DNA of 64,000 bases from NCBI GenBank assembly GCA_003252455.1, contig QKED01000033.1, positions 1-64,000 of the forward strand, given 5' to 3'. Positions 3,545 to 54,150 of this stretch are shown here, one piece after another. Within the stretch, counting starts at the first letter, position 1. Each line of letters begins with the position of its first letter. Source of the stretch: Gammaproteobacteria bacterium. Lineage in GTDB: Bacteria > Pseudomonadota > Gammaproteobacteria > Thiohalomonadales > Thiohalomonadaceae. Under the pieces are notes generated by a model. It saw nothing but the letters and a program-made list of their open reading frames with translations, was not told the DNA's origin and did no database searches. The translations under genes and the position numbers were made by a program.

Positions 3545-8980
<5,436 letters not shown>

Positions 8981-11196: not shown

Positions 11197-12975
11197 ATGA
11201 GCGACACCCCCAAAGCGCGCCGCCCGCGCGACCTGAGCCAGGCCGAGGCGGGCTTCGAGACCCGCCCTATGGTCGACTGGTTCAACCCCCTGCAGCTGGC
11301 CCATACCGGGCTGCAGGTGGCCGTCTCCAGCCTCTTCGGCAGCTACGCCGACAAGCGCGAGCTGATGGCCTACGCCGAGCCCCCGTTCTACGACTACAGC
11401 CACCAGGAGGCGCTCTGGTTCGACTACACCGCCGACCTCGGCGACGGCTTCGACAGCACCTACGCCGTCGCCTCGCTGCTGGCCGCGCCGAGCCTGAGCG
11501 TGAACGGCGTCGACCAGCCGCTACCGCGCGGCGAGCTGCTACTACTCGGCGGCGACGAGGTCTACCCCACCGCCAGCCGCGACGAGTACAGCAACCGCAT
11601 GACCGGCCCCTACGCCGCCGCCCTGCCCTGGGTGGAGGACGAAGAGGCCCGCCCGCACCTCTACGCCCTGCCCGGCAACCACGACTGGTACGACGGCCTC
11701 ACCACCTTCTCGCGCCTCTTCTGCCAGCAGCGCGGCATCGGCGGCTGGGTGACGCGCCAGTCGCGCAGCTACTTCGCCCTCAAGCTACCCCACGGTTGGT
11801 GGCTGTGGGGCGTCGACGTACAGCTCGCCTCCGACGTGGACCACCCACAGATCAAGTTCTTCGACGAGCTGGCCCGCGAGGCGATGGCCGAGGGCGACCG
11901 GGTGATCCTCTGCGGCGCCGAGCCGAGCTGGGTCTACCGCGCCCTCGGCGACGCCGAGGCGATGCGCAACCTGAGCTTCTTCCGCGACCACATCATCGGC
12001 GCCCACCAGGGGCGCGTGGCGCTGATGCTCGCCGGCGACCTGCACCACTACTGCCACTTCAGCCATGCCGACGGCGAGAGCCACCGCATCACCTGCGGCG
12101 GCGGTGGCGCCTTCCTGCACGGCACCCACAACCTGCCCGAGACACTGCCCGAGGAGCGCCCCGGCGAGGGCGAGTTCCAGCGTCAGGCGGTCTACCCGGA
12201 GGAGGAGACCTCGCGTGCGCTCACCTGGGAGAACTGGAAGTTCCCCCTCACCAATCGCGCCTTTTCGCTCTTCATGGGCGCCTTCTATCTGCTCTACGCC
12301 TGGATGCTGGAGAGCACCAGCATGGGGCTCTCCAGCACCTACTTCCCTGGCTCCCTATCGAGCCACTTCGCCACCCTGCCGCTCACCTTCGGCGGCATCG
12401 GCGAGGTGGTCGCCAGCTACCTGAAGATCCTCGTGGTCAGCCCCTCCAACTTGGTGCTCGGGCTGGTGCTGATCCTCGGTATGTACACCTTCGTCGAGGC
12501 GCCGCCGCAGTACAGTCCCAAGGTGAAGTGGCTCATCGGCCTGGGGCACGGCACCGGCCACCTGCTGCTCAACCTGCTGCTCTTCTGGGCCCTGGTGCAG
12601 CTCAACGACGAGCTCTTCGGCCTCGCCCTCAAGGGCTGGGGCAGCCTGCTGTTCGCGGGCGAGATGCTCGCACTCGGCTCGCTCTGCGCGGGTCTCGCCA
12701 TGGGCATCCACCTGCTCTGGAGCAACCTCGGCTTCGGCTACAACCGCACCCCGTCGTTCTCCTCACTGCGCGTGGCCGACTACAAATCCCTGCTGCGCCT
12801 GCACATCGACCGCGACGGCCTGACCCTCTACCCACTGGCCCTCGACAAGGTGCCGACCCAGTGGCGCGCCGACCCCGAGGGTGGCACCGAGAGCCCCTGG
12901 TTCGTGCCCACCGACCACCCACTCACGGTGCGTCTCATCGAACAACCCATCCGTATCCCCGCCAAGGAGTCCTGA
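11197..12975 (+). CDS. Membrane-anchored calcineurin-like metallophosphoesterase
   Basis: A 592-residue protein combining a cytoplasmic-type metallophosphoesterase with a membrane domain. Metal-binding motifs are GGDEVYP (about 118), the classic GNHDWYDG (about 161) and AGDLHHY (about 280), the last equivalent to the family's GHxH block. A His in CGGGGAFLHG follows. Four hydrophobic helices lie at about 355-378, 411-432, 445-468 and 484-508, before a soluble tail. Phospholipid or other phosphoester hydrolysis at the membrane is plausible, but the substrate is not evident. GAGGA lies 7 nt before the ATG, and the stop codon lies 2 bp before the GMC start codon, so the two genes are surely co-translated. 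Its presence inside a GMC/hydrolase operon is the unusual feature. Confidence 0.88.
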   Translation: MSDTPKARRPRDLSQAEAGFETRPMVDWFNPLQLAHTGLQVAVSSLFGSYADKRELMAYAEPPFYDYSHQEALWFDYTADLGDGFDSTYAVASLLAAPSLSVNGVDQPLPRGELLLLGGDEVYPTASRDEYSNRMTGPYAAALPWVEDEEARPHLYALPGNHDWYDGLTTFSRLFCQQRGIGGWVTRQSRSYFALKLPHGWWLWGVDVQLASDVDHPQIKFFDELAREAMAEGDRVILCGAEPSWVYRALGDAEAMRNLSFFRDHIIGAHQGRVALMLAGDLHHYCHFSHADGESHRITCGGGGAFLHGTHNLPETLPEERPGEGEFQRQAVYPEEETSRALTWENWKFPLTNRAFSLFMGAFYLLYAWMLESTSMGLSSTYFPGSLSSHFATLPLTFGGIGEVVASYLKILVVSPSNLVLGLVLILGMYTFVEAPPQYSPKVKWLIGLGHGTGHLLLNLLLFWALVQLNDELFGLALKGWGSLLFAGEMLALGSLCAGLAMGIHLLWSNLGFGYNRTPSFSSLRVADYKSLLRLHIDRDGLTLYPLALDKVPTQWRADPEGGTESPWFVPTDHPLTVRLIEQPIRIPAKES

Positions 12976-47825: not shown

Positions 47826-49835
47826 GTGTCCGGACTCAATCCCAGGCAACAGGCCGCCCTCCTGGCCATCGACGGCCCCGTGCTGGTGCTCGCCGGTGCC
47901 GGTAGCGGCAAGACCCGCGTCATCACGCAGAAGATCGCCTACCTGATCCAGCAGTGCGGCTACAACCCACGCCACATCGCCGCCGTCACCTTCACCAACA
48001 AGGCGGCGCGCGAGATGAAGGCGCGCGTGGGCAAGTTATTGAAGGGCAAGGAGTCCCACGGGCTGCGCGTATCCACCTTCCACACCTTGGGGCTCGAAAT
48101 CATCCGCCGCGAGATCCAGACCCTCGGCTACAAGCCTGGCTTCTCCATCTTCGACGCCGCCGACGCCATGGGGCTGATCAAGGAGCTGGGGCGCCGCGAG
48201 GGCACGGGTGATGGCGAGGAGGAGAAGCAACTGCAGTGGCAGATCTCCCACTGGAAGAACGCCTTCGTCGACCCCGAACAGGCGCTGCGCGAGGCGGTGA
48301 GCGATCAGGCCACCCGCGCCGCCCTGCTCTACGCCCAGTACAACCGCCACCTCAAGGCCTACAACGCGGTCGACTTCGACGACCTGATTATGCTCCCGGT
48401 GCAGCTCTTCGAGCGCGAGCCGGAGATATTGCAGCAGTGGCAGAACCGCATCCGCTATCTGCTGGTGGACGAGTACCAGGACACCAACGCCACCCAGTAT
48501 CGCCTGGTGCAGCTGCTGGTCGGGCTCAGCGCGCGCTTCACCGTGGTGGGCGACGACGACCAATCCATCTACGCCTGGCGCGGCGCGCAGCCGGAGAACC
48601 TCGCCCTACTCCAGCGCGACTTCCCCGGCCTCAAGGTGATCAAGCTGGAGCAGAACTACCGCTCCATGGGGCGCATCCTCAAGGCCGCCAACCAGCTCAT
48701 CGCCAACAACGAGCACGTCTTCGAGAAGCGCCTGTGGAGCGAGCTGGGCCACGGCGAGCCGCTGCGCATCATCCAGGCGGCGGACGACGAGGACGAGGCG
48801 CAGCGCGTGGTCAGCGAGATCATCCACCACAAGTTCCAGCACAAGGCCGACTTCGGCGACTTCGCCATCCTCTACCGTGGCAACCACCAGTCGCGCATCT
48901 TCGAAAAGGCCCTGCGCGAACAGCGCATCCCCTACACCATCAGCGGCTCCACCTCCTTCTTCTCGCACACCGAGGTGAAGGACATCATGGCCTACCTGCG
49001 GCTGGTGACGAACCCCGACGACGACGCCGCCTTCCTGCGCGTGATCAACACCCCCAGGCGCGAGATCGGCCCCACCACCCTGGAGAAGCTCGGCGGCTAC
49101 GCCATGAACCGGGGCATCAGCCTCTTCACCGCCTGCTTCGAGTTAGGTCTCGCCCAGCACCTGCCCGAGCGTGCCGTCGAGCGCCTGCGCGGCTTCGCCG
49201 AGTGGCTGGTGGACATCGCCCATCGCGCCGACAAGGGCGATCGCATGGCCGCCGTGCGCGACCTGGTGCACGAGATCGACTACCGCAACTGGCTGCAAGA
49301 CTCCAGCCGCGACCTCAAGCAGGCCGAGCGGCGCGTGCAGAACATCGAGGAGCTGATCGAGTGGATCGGCCGCATGCACGAGCAGGAGGGCAACGACCCG
49401 CCGCTCACCGACCTGGTGGCCAAGCTCACCCTGTTCGACATCATGGACCGCAACGACAGCGACGAGGGCGAGGGCACCGTGCGCCTGATGACCCTGCACG
49501 CCGCCAAGGGGCTGGAGTTCCCCCACGTCTTCCTCGTCGGCATGGAGGAGGAGCTGCTACCGCACCGGGTCAGCATCGAAGAGGAGAACATCGCTGAAGA
49601 GCGCCGCCTAGCATATGTGGGCATCACCCGCGCCCAACGCACCCTGACCATGACCCTGGCGGCCAAGCGCAGAAGAGGCGGCGAGATGGTGCGCTGCGAA
49701 CCGAGTCGCTTCCTCGACGAACTACCGCCGGAGGATATCCAGTGGGAGGGCAAGGGGGTGGAGCTGGACCCGGATACGCGCCAGGCGCGGGGCAAGGCGC
49801 ATCTGGCCAATCTGCGCGGGTTGTTGGGGCAGTAG
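47826..49835 (+). CDS. rep: ATP-dependent DNA helicase Rep
   Basis: A 669-residue UvrD/Rep-family 3'-5' helicase that helps replication forks past protein blocks. Motif I is AGAGSGKT (about 23-30), Ia AVTFTNKAAREMK, II VDEYQDTN, III GDDDQSIYAWRGA, IV QNYRS, V LMTLHAAKGLEFP and VI RRLAYVGITRAQ. Sequence and length match Rep more closely than UvrD, including a C-terminal KAHLANLRGLL. The start is GTG at 47826 with AGGT about 7 nt upstream. A TAAAAT -10-like element lies at 47789. It is divergent from the small membrane gene and convergent with the RES toxin gene. Confidence 0.95.
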   Translation: MSGLNPRQQAALLAIDGPVLVLAGAGSGKTRVITQKIAYLIQQCGYNPRHIAAVTFTNKAAREMKARVGKLLKGKESHGLRVSTFHTLGLEIIRREIQTLGYKPGFSIFDAADAMGLIKELGRREGTGDGEEEKQLQWQISHWKNAFVDPEQALREAVSDQATRAALLYAQYNRHLKAYNAVDFDDLIMLPVQLFEREPEILQQWQNRIRYLLVDEYQDTNATQYRLVQLLVGLSARFTVVGDDDQSIYAWRGAQPENLALLQRDFPGLKVIKLEQNYRSMGRILKAANQLIANNEHVFEKRLWSELGHGEPLRIIQAADDEDEAQRVVSEIIHHKFQHKADFGDFAILYRGNHQSRIFEKALREQRIPYTISGSTSFFSHTEVKDIMAYLRLVTNPDDDAAFLRVINTPRREIGPTTLEKLGGYAMNRGISLFTACFELGLAQHLPERAVERLRGFAEWLVDIAHRADKGDRMAAVRDLVHEIDYRNWLQDSSRDLKQAERRVQNIEELIEWIGRMHEQEGNDPPLTDLVAKLTLFDIMDRNDSDEGEGTVRLMTLHAAKGLEFPHVFLVGMEEELLPHRVSIEEENIAEERRLAYVGITRAQRTLTMTLAAKRRRGGEMVRCEPSRFLDELPPEDIQWEGKGVELDPDTRQARGKAHLANLRGLLGQ

Positions 49836-49854
49836 GCGAGTTCACCCCACCGTT

Positions 49855-50611
49855 TCACGTCGCAGCTTGCGGAAGGCTCCCATCCACGCTGAACTGCTCC
49901 AGCCCAAAACACAGCGCACGCCCCAGCCCGCGTGCAGTAAAGGCCACCTGCCGCCCATCGGTGCGACAGAGCCACGCCTGCTCGGCCAGCGGGCGCTGAT
50001 CGGCGAGTGCCGTCGGGTGAAAGAGACCCACATTGGTGCCGAGCGCAGGGCAGCGCGCCGAAGGGTATTCGAACGCCTCGACACCCGCATCGCGCATCTG
50101 TCTGCCCAATGCTTGAGTGGCACGATAATCCACGGGATTCATCAGCGCAGGGCGATGGTCGAGACACGCCTGGTCTTGCAGACGCAGGCCGCGCTCGCTC
50201 GCGTAGGCGGCCTCGAAGAGGGTGTGTTGGCTGGTATAGGGTGCGCTGGGCGCCTCGGCCATGCCGTATGCCGTACCAGAAGAGCAGCCGGTAGTAGGCC
50301 GACTCCGCCAGGGCGGTCTCGGCACTGAGTGCGCCGTAGAAGATGCTCGGCTCGTAGCGCCCGCCAAAACGCGAGCCGTGGCGCAGGGGCGGGTAGCGAA
50401 ACGGGGTACGCAGAAGATAGTGGAGACCCTCACTCCCCGCTCGATACGCGGGCTTGGAATTGTCGAGCAGGGTCTCTAGCAGACTCTGCTCGTCGAGGTC
50501 GTCGACCAGACCCTGAGTGGCCACCTGCTCTTGGCTCTCGACCAAGCGAAAGAGGATACCGTCGAGGGGCACGAAGGGACGCCCAGCCCCGCACACCTGC
50601 CACAAGGGCAC
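49855..50611 (-). pseudogene. RES-domain toxin gene disrupted by a 7-bp tandem duplication
   Basis: The first frame (GTG at 50611) reads a typical RES domain: LLRTPFRYPPLRHGSRFGG, then FYGALSAETALAESAYYR and LLFWYG. It then leaves register. The second frame continues exactly where family members do, with MAEAPSAPYTSQHTLFEAAY, MNPVDYRATQALGR and ARCPALGTNVGLFHP to the stop at 49855. The break coincides with two adjacent copies of TACGGCA (plus strand TGCCGTA at 50262-50275). Removing one copy restores a 249-codon gene. RES toxins of Res-Xre systems degrade NAD+. The antitoxin gene lies 2 bp upstream. As written the toxin is truncated, though slippage could revert it. Confidence 0.85.
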
Positions 50612-50613
50612 GG

Positions 50614-50967
50614 CTAGACCTTGCCGCGCATGGCGTCGAGGTAGCCGACCAGCTCGACCAGGCTAGCGATGGTATGGACCTGCTCGGCGGGTATGCCGCC
50701 GGTGTGGTGGTTGGCGGTGCGCATCCAGTGACGCATCGCCTCACCTTCGCCCCCGACCAGTACAAACAGGCTGCGATAGAGGCGGATCAGCAGCAGCGCC
50801 AACTCGCCCGCCTTGTCGTGCGGGTCGATACCGCGCTGGAAGATGGAGCGATCTCGCCCGAGGATGCGGGCGGTTTCACTCTGGGTGAAACCGAGCGCCT
50901 TACCTGCGCGGTCGGTGGCCTTGGCTAAGACGGCGCGCTCGTCGGCCTGGGGTTTGGGAGCTAGCAT
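50614..50967 (-). CDS. Xre/MbcA/ParS-type antitoxin (DUF2384) of a Res-Xre pair
   Basis: A 117-residue antitoxin. An Xre-like helix-turn-helix is visible at about 24-48 (KALGFTQSETARILGRDRS). The C-terminal toxin-binding domain (about 60-115) is of the DUF2384 type, with MRHWMRTANHHTGGIPAEQ and LVELVGYLDAMRG. It should neutralise the RES protein encoded 2 bp downstream and repress the shared promoter. The frame is intact although the toxin gene is not. The ATG at 50967 has only a weak site (GGATC). Upstream, at 51021, a hairpin-rich tandem repeat array begins, so the operon's promoter lies next to or in it. Confidence 0.88.
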   Translation of the reverse strand: MLAPKPQADERAVLAKATDRAGKALGFTQSETARILGRDRSIFQRGIDPHDKAGELALLLIRLYRSLFVLVGGEGEAMRHWMRTANHHTGGIPAEQVHTIASLVELVGYLDAMRGKV

Positions 50968-51020
50968 GCGGGATCCAACCGGAGATTTTGTTGCTTATGC
51001 AGCAATATAGCAGCCTGTGA

Positions 51021-51520
51021 TGATAAATCCACGAACTCCTGTCCCGGAGGAGCACCCACCTAGCCACTCTGATCTTCGCCTTGCTGCGCGAGGCGCACGG
51101 GCCGGTAGATCCATGCTCCCAGCGAAGCCCCCTCTCACAAGCCCACGGCTTGTGAGGGAGGCTTCGGTCGAAGGGTGATAAATCAAGCCGTTGGCTTGAT
51201 GCTCCAATGCGCAGCTCCCCCTGGAAGGAGCGCTCTCCTGGCCGCTTCGCCGCCGCAGGCGGCTCTTCGCCTCGCTCGGCAAGGCCGCACAGGCCGGGAG
51301 ATCCATGCTCACAGCGAAGCCCGCTGGAGCCACAAGCCCACGGCTTGTGAGAGGGGGCTTCGCTCGAAGGGTGATAAATCAAGCCGTTGGCTTGATGCTC
51401 CAATGCGCAGCTCCCCCTGGGAGGAGCACTCCCCCGACCGCTCCGCCGCCGCAGGCGGCTCTTCGCCTCGCTACGCGACGCCGCATAGGCAGGGAGACCC
51501 GTGCTCCCAGCCTCCGCAGA
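51021..51520. repeat. Tandem array of ~196-bp hairpin-rich repeats (about 2.4 copies)
   Basis: Marker words recur at fixed steps. TGATAAATC is at 51176 and 51372 (196 bp), GCAGGCGGCTCTTCGCC at 51255 and 51451 (196 bp), and AGATCCATGCTC at 51107 and 51299 (192 bp). A degenerate left copy starts near 51021 and a right remnant ends near 51520. Each full unit holds a long hairpin (51123-51166: CGAAGCC outer arm, CTCACAAGCC-CAC-GGCTTGTGAG core), a second hairpin (51182-51200: ATCAAGCC-GTT-GGCTTGAT) and a small GCCGC/GCGGC stem. The frames across it are chance products. With its flanks it forms the 704-bp gene-free region between the antitoxin and the 51672 gene; nothing else was seen in 51521-51671. 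Confidence 0.85.
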
Positions 51521-51671
51521 GAACCCATTTTCAAACAGGTCTACGGGAAAGAGCGCTAACGACAACCCAGCCCATTCAGCAGCACGCCTCTGACCTGACT
51601 ACTTCAGGCACGTCTGCGCGCAGCAGGGGCAAACGGCTCGCCCGCGCAGGGTCTGCCAAGCAAACAGCGGT

Positions 51672-51944
51672 TCACGCCAACCGCGAGTAAGGGCACTGTC
51701 TTCCTGCTCCTGGACCAACAGCCGCGAGTAGACCCGACAACCGCAGTGTCTGCATTTGGCGAAATACTAACGTGGCGATGCGCCCTATACCGAGGGGTAC
51801 AAAAAAATAGATTACGTCCGGCTCCAGCAGACACGGGGCCAAGAGTACAAAGCCAAGTAACGCTAGGGCACCGAGGCTACCGGTAAGGATGATCCAGGCG
51901 GCGAGATAGAGTACCGCCTTGTTATAGCACTGAGGTCTCTGCAT
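51672..51944 (-). CDS. Small uncharacterised membrane protein
   Basis: A 90-residue frame with two hydrophobic helices (about 10-38 and 43-60) and a short basic C-terminus. Three Cys are present. AAGG lies about 4-5 nt before the ATG at 51944, and the gene follows the 51971 gene on the same strand after 26 bp. Composition supports a true inner-membrane protein, but no family is recognised. Confidence 0.5.
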   Translation of the reverse strand: MQRPQCYNKAVLYLAAWIILTGSLGALALLGFVLLAPCLLEPDVIYFFVPLGIGRIATLVFRQMQTLRLSGLLAAVGPGAGRQCPYSRLA

Positions 51945-51970
51945 ATGCCTTCCCTGGCTCGCCCCAACCA

Positions 51971-52258
51971 CTAGTCCTTTTGCTCGGTACCCTTCTTCAT
52001 CCCTTTGAGCAGGGTGATGCCCTTCTCGCGCTGCAGTTTGACGATGGCCAAATCCTGCTCCAGGGTGGTGCGCCGCTCGGGGCTGATCACCTTGCGGTCG
52101 AGTTCGCGGCGCAGGCTACGGCTGTGCTTTTTGAGCTTACGCAGTGCCTTTTCGGTCTCACTGCGCCGTTCGTGTTGCGCACGCAGGTCGCTGTCGACCA
52201 GGTGGGTCAGCCTTTGCAGCCACTTGTTGAGCTTCATCACGGTGCGCTCTAAGTCCAT
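51971..52258 (-). CDS. Small coiled-coil protein
   Basis: A 95-residue, highly charged protein that is almost entirely helical, with Lys, Arg, Glu and Leu in heptad-like order (for example MKLNKWLQRLTHLVDSDLRA, then KALRKLKKHSRSLRREL). It has no cysteine, signal or membrane part. The start at 52258 is supported by GAGGAGAGAG just upstream; a longer frame to 52315 lacks such a site. It lies 86 bp after the Na/Pi cotransporter gene on the same strand. The function is unknown. Confidence 0.65.
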   Translation of the reverse strand: MDLERTVMKLNKWLQRLTHLVDSDLRAQHERRSETEKALRKLKKHSRSLRRELDRKVISPERRTTLEQDLAIVKLQREKGITLLKGMKKGTEQKD

Positions 52259-52344
52259 CTCTCTCTCCTCACGAGACCGGCGCCGTGGGGATCCGCCCCC
52301 ATGGTCAGGACTCAATGTTGCAATAGGATGTCAGTCTGCCGACT

Positions 52345-54150
52345 TCAACCGCCGCTGGCGATGTCGGTGATGGCGGCGGCGTCGAGGGCCAGCGGACGCT
52401 CCTCTTCGGTCTCGTAGAGGACCTCGGCCATCTCGATCAGTTTAGCCACGATATTGTAGGCGTAGGCGCCATCGTTCATCAGTGAGGTGGCCATCTGGCT
52501 GTTGATCAGACGGTTGCGGATCAGCTTGTCGAGGGTGCCGTTGACCAGGATGTCGTTGCGCTCCAATTCGATCTTCATGCGGTCGAGGGGCAGGAGGTTG
52601 GGCTCCTCCTCGTCGCTCGCCTCGATGCGGCCAATCTCACGCAGGGTCTGCGCCAGCTGCAGGCGGATGTTGTTGTACTCGGCGCGGATGTGCGGGTTCT
52701 CGGCGTGGGCGTAGCGCTCGATGTTGGCCTGCAGGTCTTTCATATCCTTGATCGCATCGACGATGTCGCGATTGGCCAGTTTGAGTTGGTAGAGCTTGCG
52801 CGCCTGCTTCTGCGTCATACCGCTCTCGGCACGGCTGGCGAACTCGATGATGGCGCTGTAGATCCCCTTGATGCGGAACTGATAGAGCTGGTCGATCTCG
52901 GCGTGTGGCACCTTGTGGATCTCGTTCACCAGCTCGCCGAGGTCACGTTCGGAGAGGATGTGGTGGCGATGTAGGCCCAGGGCGTGGGCGATGATCTCGA
53001 AGGCGTTGTCGTAGAGGTGGCGGGTCTCCTGGTTGATCGCCATCAGTGCCGCGTCGGGGTAGATGAGCACCGCCTCGTTGATGTACTGGGGCACGCTCTC
53101 TACCGGGCGGGTGATACGCGGCTCGGCCTGCTGGGTCTCGGGTATGAGGCGCCCGAGCAGCCGCACCAGGCGATCGATGAGCGGCAGCATCACCGCCACG
53201 CCGACCAGGTTGAACAGGGTGTGGAAGACCGCCAGCTTGAGGGTGTAGTTATCTTCGGCGATACCCGCGTGCAGGCTGGTCCACTCCACCGCCTGGACGA
53301 ACTGGGCCATGAAGACGATGGCGATGAGGCCGGTGGTGAGGTTGAAGATGAGGTGCGCCCCGGCCAGGCGCCGCCCGGCGGCGTTGGCCCCCATGGCGCC
53401 GATGATGGCGGTGATGGTGGTGCCGATGTTGGCGCCGATGGCCAGGGCGAGGGCGTTCTCGTAGCTGATCTGCCCGGCGCCGAGGGCGGTGATGATGAGC
53501 ACCAGGGTGGCGTGGGACGACTGCATCACCACGGTGGCGAGGGTGCCTATGAGGGTGAAGAGGAGCAGGCCGAGCAGCCCCTCGACGGCATAGGCGCTGA
53601 GGTCGAAGCTACCCCTGAAGGCCTCGAACCCCTCCTTCATGTAGTGGATGCCAAGAAACAGGAACCCCATACCGGTGAGGATGTAGCCGAGCCCCTTGAG
53701 CGAGCGCGAGGATTGGAACTGCAGCACCACGCCGAACACCAGCATCGGCATGGCGTAGGCGGCGATGTTCACCTTGAGGCCGAAGCCGGCCACCAACCAG
53801 GCGCCGGTGGTGGTGCCGATGTTGGCACCGAAGATGATGCCGATGCCCTCGGCCAGGCCGAGCAGGCCGGCGCTCAGGAAGGAGATGGTGAGCACCGAGA
53901 CCAGTGAGCTGGACTGCATCAGGGTGGTGGAGACGATGCCGAATGAGAGGCTCTTCCACAGGCGGTCGGTGGAGCGGCGCAGCACCTTCTCCAGTACCCC
54001 GCCGGTGAACGCCTTGAACCCCTCCTCCAGCGCCAGCATGCCGATGAGAAAGATGGCCACGCCGGCGGCGATCGCCTTGATGTCGGCACTGACCCAGAAG
54101 GCGTAGGCGAGGCCGATGAGCAGGGCCGGGAGGAGGAGTTTTCTCAGCAT
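52345..54150 (-). CDS. Na+/phosphate cotransporter family protein with PhoU-like tail
   Basis: A 601-residue inner-membrane protein with two NptA/PF02690 repeats. Each repeat has a QSS motif: TLMQSSSLVSVL in the first and VVMQSSHATLVL in the second. Each also has the paired IIFGANIGTTTGA and LAIGANIGTTITA blocks. The membrane part ends near residue 325; the remaining ~275 residues are a helical cytoplasmic PhoU-like domain. This is the YjbB-like long form, which in some bacteria exports phosphate rather than importing it. AAGGA lies 7 nt before the ATG at 54150, and a TATAAT lies about 31 bp upstream. Confidence 0.93.
   Translation of the reverse strand: MLRKLLLPALLIGLAYAFWVSADIKAIAAGVAIFLIGMLALEEGFKAFTGGVLEKVLRRSTDRLWKSLSFGIVSTTLMQSSSLVSVLTISFLSAGLLGLAEGIGIIFGANIGTTTGAWLVAGFGLKVNIAAYAMPMLVFGVVLQFQSSRSLKGLGYILTGMGFLFLGIHYMKEGFEAFRGSFDLSAYAVEGLLGLLLFTLIGTLATVVMQSSHATLVLIITALGAGQISYENALALAIGANIGTTITAIIGAMGANAAGRRLAGAHLIFNLTTGLIAIVFMAQFVQAVEWTSLHAGIAEDNYTLKLAVFHTLFNLVGVAVMLPLIDRLVRLLGRLIPETQQAEPRITRPVESVPQYINEAVLIYPDAALMAINQETRHLYDNAFEIIAHALGLHRHHILSERDLGELVNEIHKVPHAEIDQLYQFRIKGIYSAIIEFASRAESGMTQKQARKLYQLKLANRDIVDAIKDMKDLQANIERYAHAENPHIRAEYNNIRLQLAQTLREIGRIEASDEEEPNLLPLDRMKIELERNDILVNGTLDKLIRNRLINSQMATSLMNDGAYAYNIVAKLIEMAEVLYETEEERPLALDAAAITDIASGG

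Follow-up and report, generated by a model that had tools for sequence, protein, structure and literature searches.

A tandem array of inverted palindromic doublets upstream of a Res-Xre gene pair and its probable RAYT transposase

The rayt genes described in PMC2817692 are flanked by inverted REPs, and the REPINs described in PMC3116915 are inverted doublets that also occur in tandem clusters including flanking sequence, with one REPIN group beside each RAYT. The feet of REPs are reported to vary at their second and third places (GYAG, GYRG, GTRG, GTMG, GTGG; PMC3733652). According to PMC8266576, no change of the foot is tolerated in E. coli, and cutting is barely detected when the second foot base of the Group 3 REPtron of Stenotrophomonas maltophilia is changed (GCAG); in Marinomonas REPtron Mb, the last two foot bases alone are strongly selected for CT cutting.

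The DNA analysed here, referred to as the window, is a stretch of 64,000 nucleotides from a gammaproteobacterium of the Thiohalomonadaceae. Upstream of its Res-Xre genes lies an array that is very probably a small group of REP doublets (REPIN/BIME type) in tandem, which would be non-autonomous and depend on a RAYT (TnpA-REP, a Y1 HUH transposase) whose gene lies on contig C69 of the same genome. Like the REPs and BIMEs at rayt genes (PMC2817692), the repeats are short palindromes that alternate in orientation, form clusters, and lie on both sides of a rayt gene, and two forms alternate as they do in the Y and Z2 units of E. coli described in the same source. In contrast to those elements, the foot is GGAG rather than GT(A/G)G, and searches of 38 relatives did not find the family. 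The likeness to the REPINs of PMC3116915 lies in inverted doublets that fold into one hairpin, in tandem clusters that take in flanking sequence, and in one family per RAYT, with three RAYT-linked families in one genome; however, the copies here are mostly clustered. The Group 3 REPtron of S. maltophilia (PMC8266576) shares the perfect 8-bp stem, the 3-nt loop, and a four-base foot, but its foot is GTAG, whereas here GGAG is followed by one base, mostly C, before the stem. In Marinomonas Mb (PMC8266576), the foot is likewise slightly apart from the stem, and GGAG keeps the AG that is selected there, but the Mb stem has 5 bp and its foot is GTAG. Finally, TnpA-Y1 subclasses 2.6 and class 3 (PMC6006769) include RAYT-like genes whose flanking structures lack GT[AG]G, although the motifs there are NH[LIV]H and NHVH, whereas the proteins of contigs C69 and C82 have EHYH and DHYH, respectively.

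Layout of the array

Tandem Repeats Finder places the array at 51073-51511, with a period of 196, 2.3 copies, and 87% matches, and a repeat search of the window gives a direct repeat of 159 nt, 89% identical, at the same spacing of 196. The parts of the array and its nearest neighbours are the following.

50614-50967, minus strand: Xre/MbcA/ParS-type antitoxin gene (Pfam PF09722, PF20432), a neighbour outside the element
50991-51005, no strand: palindrome TTGCT-TATGC-AGCAA, a neighbour just upstream of the antitoxin (read from the sequence)
51010-51072, no strand: decayed, partly deleted copy of the unit (repeat match at 51046-51069, alignment)
51073-51511, no strand: tandem array, period 196, 2.3 copies, each unit a REP doublet plus ~120 bp of other sequence (repeat finders)
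51136-51154, plus strand: REP hairpin of doublet 1, CACAAGCC-CAC-GGCTTGTG, GGAGC foot lost (core count, hairpin scan, alignment)
51182-51205, minus strand: inverted REP hairpin of doublet 1 with foot, GGAGC-ATCAAGCC-AAC-GGCTTGAT (pattern count, hairpin scan)
51206-51325, no strand: sequence between the doublets (copies on C37 and in the C66 array)
51326-51349, plus strand: REP hairpin of doublet 2 with GGAGC foot (pattern count, hairpin scan)
51378-51401, minus strand: inverted REP hairpin of doublet 2 with GGAGC foot (pattern count, hairpin scan)
51326-51401, no strand: complete REPIN-like doublet, predicted to form one long ssDNA hairpin closed by GGAGC/GCTCC (ssDNA fold)

Every full unit contains two facing stem-loops of the form GGAGC + NNCAAGCC-nnn-GGCTTGNN. 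These point inward: the plus-strand hairpin reads GGAGC + CACAAGCC-CAC-GGCTTGTG and the minus-strand hairpin GGAGC + ATCAAGCC-AAC-GGCTTGAT, and the two hairpin cores of a unit are 46-47 bp apart. Both stem-loops share the core AAGCCnnnGGCTT, all four window copies of which lie within the array, and the sequence AAGCCNNNGGCTT, present in both stem-loops of each of the two full units, is likewise found four times in the 64-kb window, always in the array, where 0.01 occurrences are expected. Each array hairpin has the GGAGC foot on one side, except for the first hairpin of copy 1, which has lost it. When 51326-51405 is folded as single-stranded DNA, a single long hairpin is predicted (z -4.80, with 0 of 200 shuffles as stable). 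The period of 196 thus comprises one 76-bp doublet and ~120 bp of other sequence; the latter (51206-51325) has a hairpin-less copy on C37 (77%) and a diverged copy in an array on C66 (70%).

An earlier note on this DNA, made from the sequence, had described about 2.4 copies from 51021 onward, each with two stem-loops. The two stem-loops are indeed present in both full units, and the copy number is a fair account of a 2.3-copy array preceded by a partial copy. The segment 51046-51069 resembles the two later copies at 71% and 75%, and the local alignment of 51010-51072 with the unit scores 39, the maximum of 200 shuffles being 32.5; 51010-51072 is thus a decayed, partly deleted unit. As for the arm lengths, the 10-bp arm CTCACAAGCC holds for copy 1, while the same stem is 8 bp long in copy 2. 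The note did not mention the GGAGC feet or the inward orientation of the paired hairpins.

The dispersed family and its probable RAYT

The pattern GGAGCNNCAAGCCNNNGGCTTG has 85 exact copies in the 4.58-Mb genome, and the reversed pattern has none; with the unit as query, BLAST finds 64 matches there. A scan of 19 genome stretches plus the window found 115 hairpins with no more than one core mismatch, six of which were dropped, leaving 109 in 23 clusters; one exact copy, at C102:23175, lies outside the stretches scanned. Three of the clusters are single hairpins and two are single pairs. Because the assembly breaks at repeat clusters, seven of the 23 being within ~100 bp of a contig end, the true number of repeats is probably higher than counted. 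Neighbouring hairpins are opposite in orientation in 81 of 86 cases, and hairpins of the CA/TG type as a rule alternate with those of the TT/AA, AT/AT, or GT/AC type. The position is extragenic, as is that of REP and REPIN sequences: judged by open reading frames rather than by gene annotation, 16 clusters are unspanned by any ORF of at least 150 aa, and of the seven spanning ORFs, six have no Pfam match and the match of the seventh begins at residue 116, beyond the hairpins.

The family includes five different, fully complementary stem types. Watson-Crick pairing at the two outermost stem positions is present in 102 and 103 of the 109 hairpins, against shuffle maxima of 56 and 70, with the qualification that tandem copies are not independent in these counts. 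Only these outer pairs provide a fair test of covariation, since the scan accepted no more than one mismatch in the AAGCC/GGCTT core, while the third stem pair was set by the family filter, which also required four or more of the five letters of GGAGC (two hairpins being admitted by hand).

Neither the exact pattern nor a BLAST match to the unit is found in any of 38 relatives, 19 of which belong to the same family. Several other affiliations were considered and rejected. A scan across species, which may leave out the source genome itself, listed at least 60 matching stretches from unrelated phyla; a single match was present in 59 of them and two in the other, when ~30 would be expected by chance (17 fixed bases, 257 billion bases, two strands, the palindrome ignored), and this gives no evidence of a family shared with other species. 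Phage or plasmid origin was dismissed, as blastn with 51073-51511 gave no match in either collection, and a known RNA family was dismissed as well, since Rfam yielded nothing in 50000-53000 up to E 1.

Four Y1 transposase genes, on C69, C82, C102, and C66, all score above the NCBIfam REP_Tyr_transpos cut-off. The one that bears on the array is the following.

3405-3947 of C69, minus strand: RAYT gene (REP_Tyr_transpos NF047646, 98.1 bits against a cut-off of 80)

Judged from its sequence, the C69 protein qualifies as a RAYT (TnpA-REP) by its HUH motif, its Y1 tyrosine, and its profile: H68, H70, and Y127 are invariant among the four Y1 proteins, and it matches the solved TnpA-REP structure 4er8 (E 1.1e-13). 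Within 400 bp of the gene lie eight hairpins of the window's family on one side and six on the other. The C82 and C102 RAYTs are each flanked by a different hairpin family of their own, with 29 and 32 exact genome copies, respectively (controls 0); these two patterns included the foot by choice, so that they count copies and provide no test of the foot. Thus, three RAYTs of the genome are each surrounded by a separate repeat family, in keeping with published accounts of RAYTs and REPINs (PMC2817692, PMC3116915). The C66 gene has no repeated hairpins beside it, though it is above the NCBIfam cut-off. Three copies of the C102-family repeats also lie on the window's contig, beyond the window and close to the contig end (C63:88363-88534).

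The earlier note had named dispersed elements of a REP/MITE-like kind as one option, and this was the right one: the 85 exact copies and 23 clusters constitute a dispersed, high-copy palindrome in inverted doublets that flanks a RAYT gene on both sides, with covarying stems and a fixed foot. It has to be asked whether a MITE or other palindromic family, moved by something other than the C69 RAYT, happens to have copies beside that gene by chance. The GGAG foot does depart from published RAYT-linked REPs, and the tie between family and RAYT has been drawn by sequence comparison. However, 14 hairpins lie close to the gene on its two sides, two further RAYTs of the genome are flanked in the same way by families of their own, and the doublet anatomy matches that of REPINs; another mover is therefore very unlikely. 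Points that count against the C69 RAYT as the source are the noncanonical foot, the footless first hairpin of the window, the absence of the family from 38 relatives, which leaves no empty sites for comparison, and the C66 Y1 gene without repeats.

If the array does consist of elements of the C69 RAYT, a plausible history can be drawn up. By analogy with published work on TnpA-REP (PMC8266576), the RAYT would bind the folded single strand and cut beside it, with the foot as a guide. Such binding and cutting would spread doublets through the genome, the doublet being the likely moving unit. One doublet, together with adjoining sequence, would then have been repeated in tandem by duplication or recombination, giving the 196-bp period; published tandem clusters also take in flanking sequence (PMC3116915), which would account for this period.

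For the RAYT protein, there are matches at E 0.001 in 38 of 56 genomes, its own included, the best outside match having 38% identity; at E 1e-18 only its own genome is found among 369 of the class, and the C82 protein at the same threshold finds one other genome among 398 of the phylum. Among 22 plasmid records with RAYT matches, none exceeds 60% identity or 80% coverage. Among 29 RAYT-like loci of relatives, repeated hairpins are present near the gene in 10 and on both sides in seven, a count in which misses are expected, as the scan took the matched stretch as the gene boundary and required perfect stems; GTAG stands beside a hairpin in nine of the 10, the tenth being ambiguous (read by eye).

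Beside the C69 RAYT, at 4346-6585 of locus L026, there is a probable diversity-generating retroelement, with a reverse transcriptase gene at 5581-6585 (minus strand) and a sulfatase-modifying-factor-like gene at 4346-5170. A 117-bp repeat pair (5439-5555 and 4387-4503) differs at 20 positions, 15 of which are a plus-strand T, that is, an A on the coding strand, in the copy nearer the reverse transcriptase. Similar copies lie at 12687-12811 (14 of 21) and 6817-6936 (12 of 24) of L033 on C96. Clusters of the repeat family adjoin sulfatase-modifying-factor-like genes at four places (L031 on C14, L026 on C69, and L033 on C96). Another short repeat, 85 bp long with inverted ends of the GTAGCCCGGAT type, is present at 5183-5267 and 6606-6690 of L026, with 89% identity between the two C69 copies and related pieces on C113 (L039, ~6169-6426).

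The Res-Xre neighbourhood and RNA roles

The earlier note had also raised, from the position, the possibility that the array regulates the Res-Xre operon or acts there like an RNA antitoxin. In such a case the array would serve the operon as a dedicated element, its hairpins controlling the antitoxin at the DNA or transcript level or giving rise to an RNA antitoxin. The array lies 106 bp upstream of the antitoxin start, the stems are strong also as RNA (z -3.65, with 2 of 200 shuffles as stable), and they covary. Covariation, which had been suggested as a check, was thus found in the outer stem pairs, but a single-stranded DNA hairpin recognised by a transposase predicts it equally, and consequently it is no argument for an RNA role.

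Other evidence speaks against this role. At the 22 other clusters, 38 ORFs were taken (the longest within 900 bp on each side, 36 in all with none for sides at contig ends, plus two that span clusters); 27 have a Pfam family, and no toxin-antitoxin family is among them. The name of one profile, AAA_21, mentions a toxin; the protein concerned is an ABC transporter. The note had held that many dispersed copies unrelated to toxin-antitoxin loci would make the unit an ordinary repeat family, and the 23 clusters show just this distribution. Furthermore, the genome has three Xre/MbcA-ParS (PF09722) antitoxin loci, in the window, on C58, and on C86, and no hairpin core is found in 3.1 kb around each of the latter two; the element is thus present at one of the three rather than specific to Res-Xre loci. 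A weak match to the spacer on C86 (E 8.3e-4), 540 bp from the Xre-type antitoxin gene, was rejected as a GC-rich stretch that has no hairpin and appears by eye to be a coding 3' end. The palindrome at 50991-51005, which may be operator-like by its position, lies between the array and the antitoxin gene, so that the control region of the antitoxin probably excludes the array; a promoter scan near the antitoxin gave no consensus site. In addition, the RES toxin gene (window 49280-50611, minus strand) is split, with profile positions 2-75 in one frame and 65-151 in another, and the pair may be inactive, or there may be a sequence error at the split. Given also the lack of an Rfam match in 50000-53000, a role dedicated to this operon is unsupported and highly improbable, and the array most likely occupies an ordinary intergenic site here.

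A more general possibility is that REPs, once landed between the minus-strand genes at 51672-51971 and 50614-50967, act as RNA hairpins, as transcript ends or mRNA stabilisers. The RNA stems are strong, and roles of this sort have been hypothesised for REPs elsewhere (PMC3733652). However, the hairpins carry no T-run terminator, and three terminator-like sites (1.2 expected) are found instead at 51665-51834; moreover, the upstream ORF, of 99 aa, has no Pfam match, which leaves a transcript through the array hypothetical. Such activity is unlikely here, if clearly less so than an operon-specific role. Recognising the array as REP doublets removes a tempting, unsupported link of structured repeats to a toxin-antitoxin operon.

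The GGAG foot

GGAG forms the foot of 101 of the 109 hairpins assigned to the family. A recount of the 103 hairpins with an exact core, made with no foot filter but with the better foot deciding the orientation, gives 96; in the canonical register, five of the 109 have GTAG or GTGG, all in one cluster. The family is therefore not filed in the GTAG superfamily of REPs (PMC3733652), which has an unpaired GTAG or a near variant. GGAG does not appear in the main text of PMC3733652, and a literature search limited to article text found nothing joining GGAG to RAYT or REPIN; such a foot may already be in print in a figure or supplement.

Beside the C82 RAYT, five of six hairpins have GGAGT and the sixth has AGAGT, with a foot that is partly able to pair in some copies, while the hairpins beside the C102 RAYT are of the ordinary GTAGGAGC or GTGGGAGC kind. 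Between the C69 and C82 RAYTs the identity is 43%, and their motifs, EHYH and DHYH, are absent from the consensus-motif table of PMC6006769. These observations have led to the tentative suggestion that in a [DE]HYH lineage of RAYTs the guide foot has shifted from GT[AG]G to GGAG, two families with unrelated stems sharing the new foot. This is possible but rather doubtful, because the copy counts of the C82 family provide no test of its foot and because in one published system the last two bases alone matter. A changed protein or cut rule is likewise possible but would not be required, as GGAG retains the AG that is strongly selected in Marinomonas Mb.

Taken together, these results assign the array to an established class of elements, its foot being mildly atypical, in a genome in which three RAYT-repeat systems coexist, two of them with GGAG. 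If the foot has indeed shifted, cutting may follow a different rule as well, or may still take place at CT since the last two bases are kept. As the foot presumably guides cutting, the GGAG-footed pair could be used to test how guide and transposase change together.
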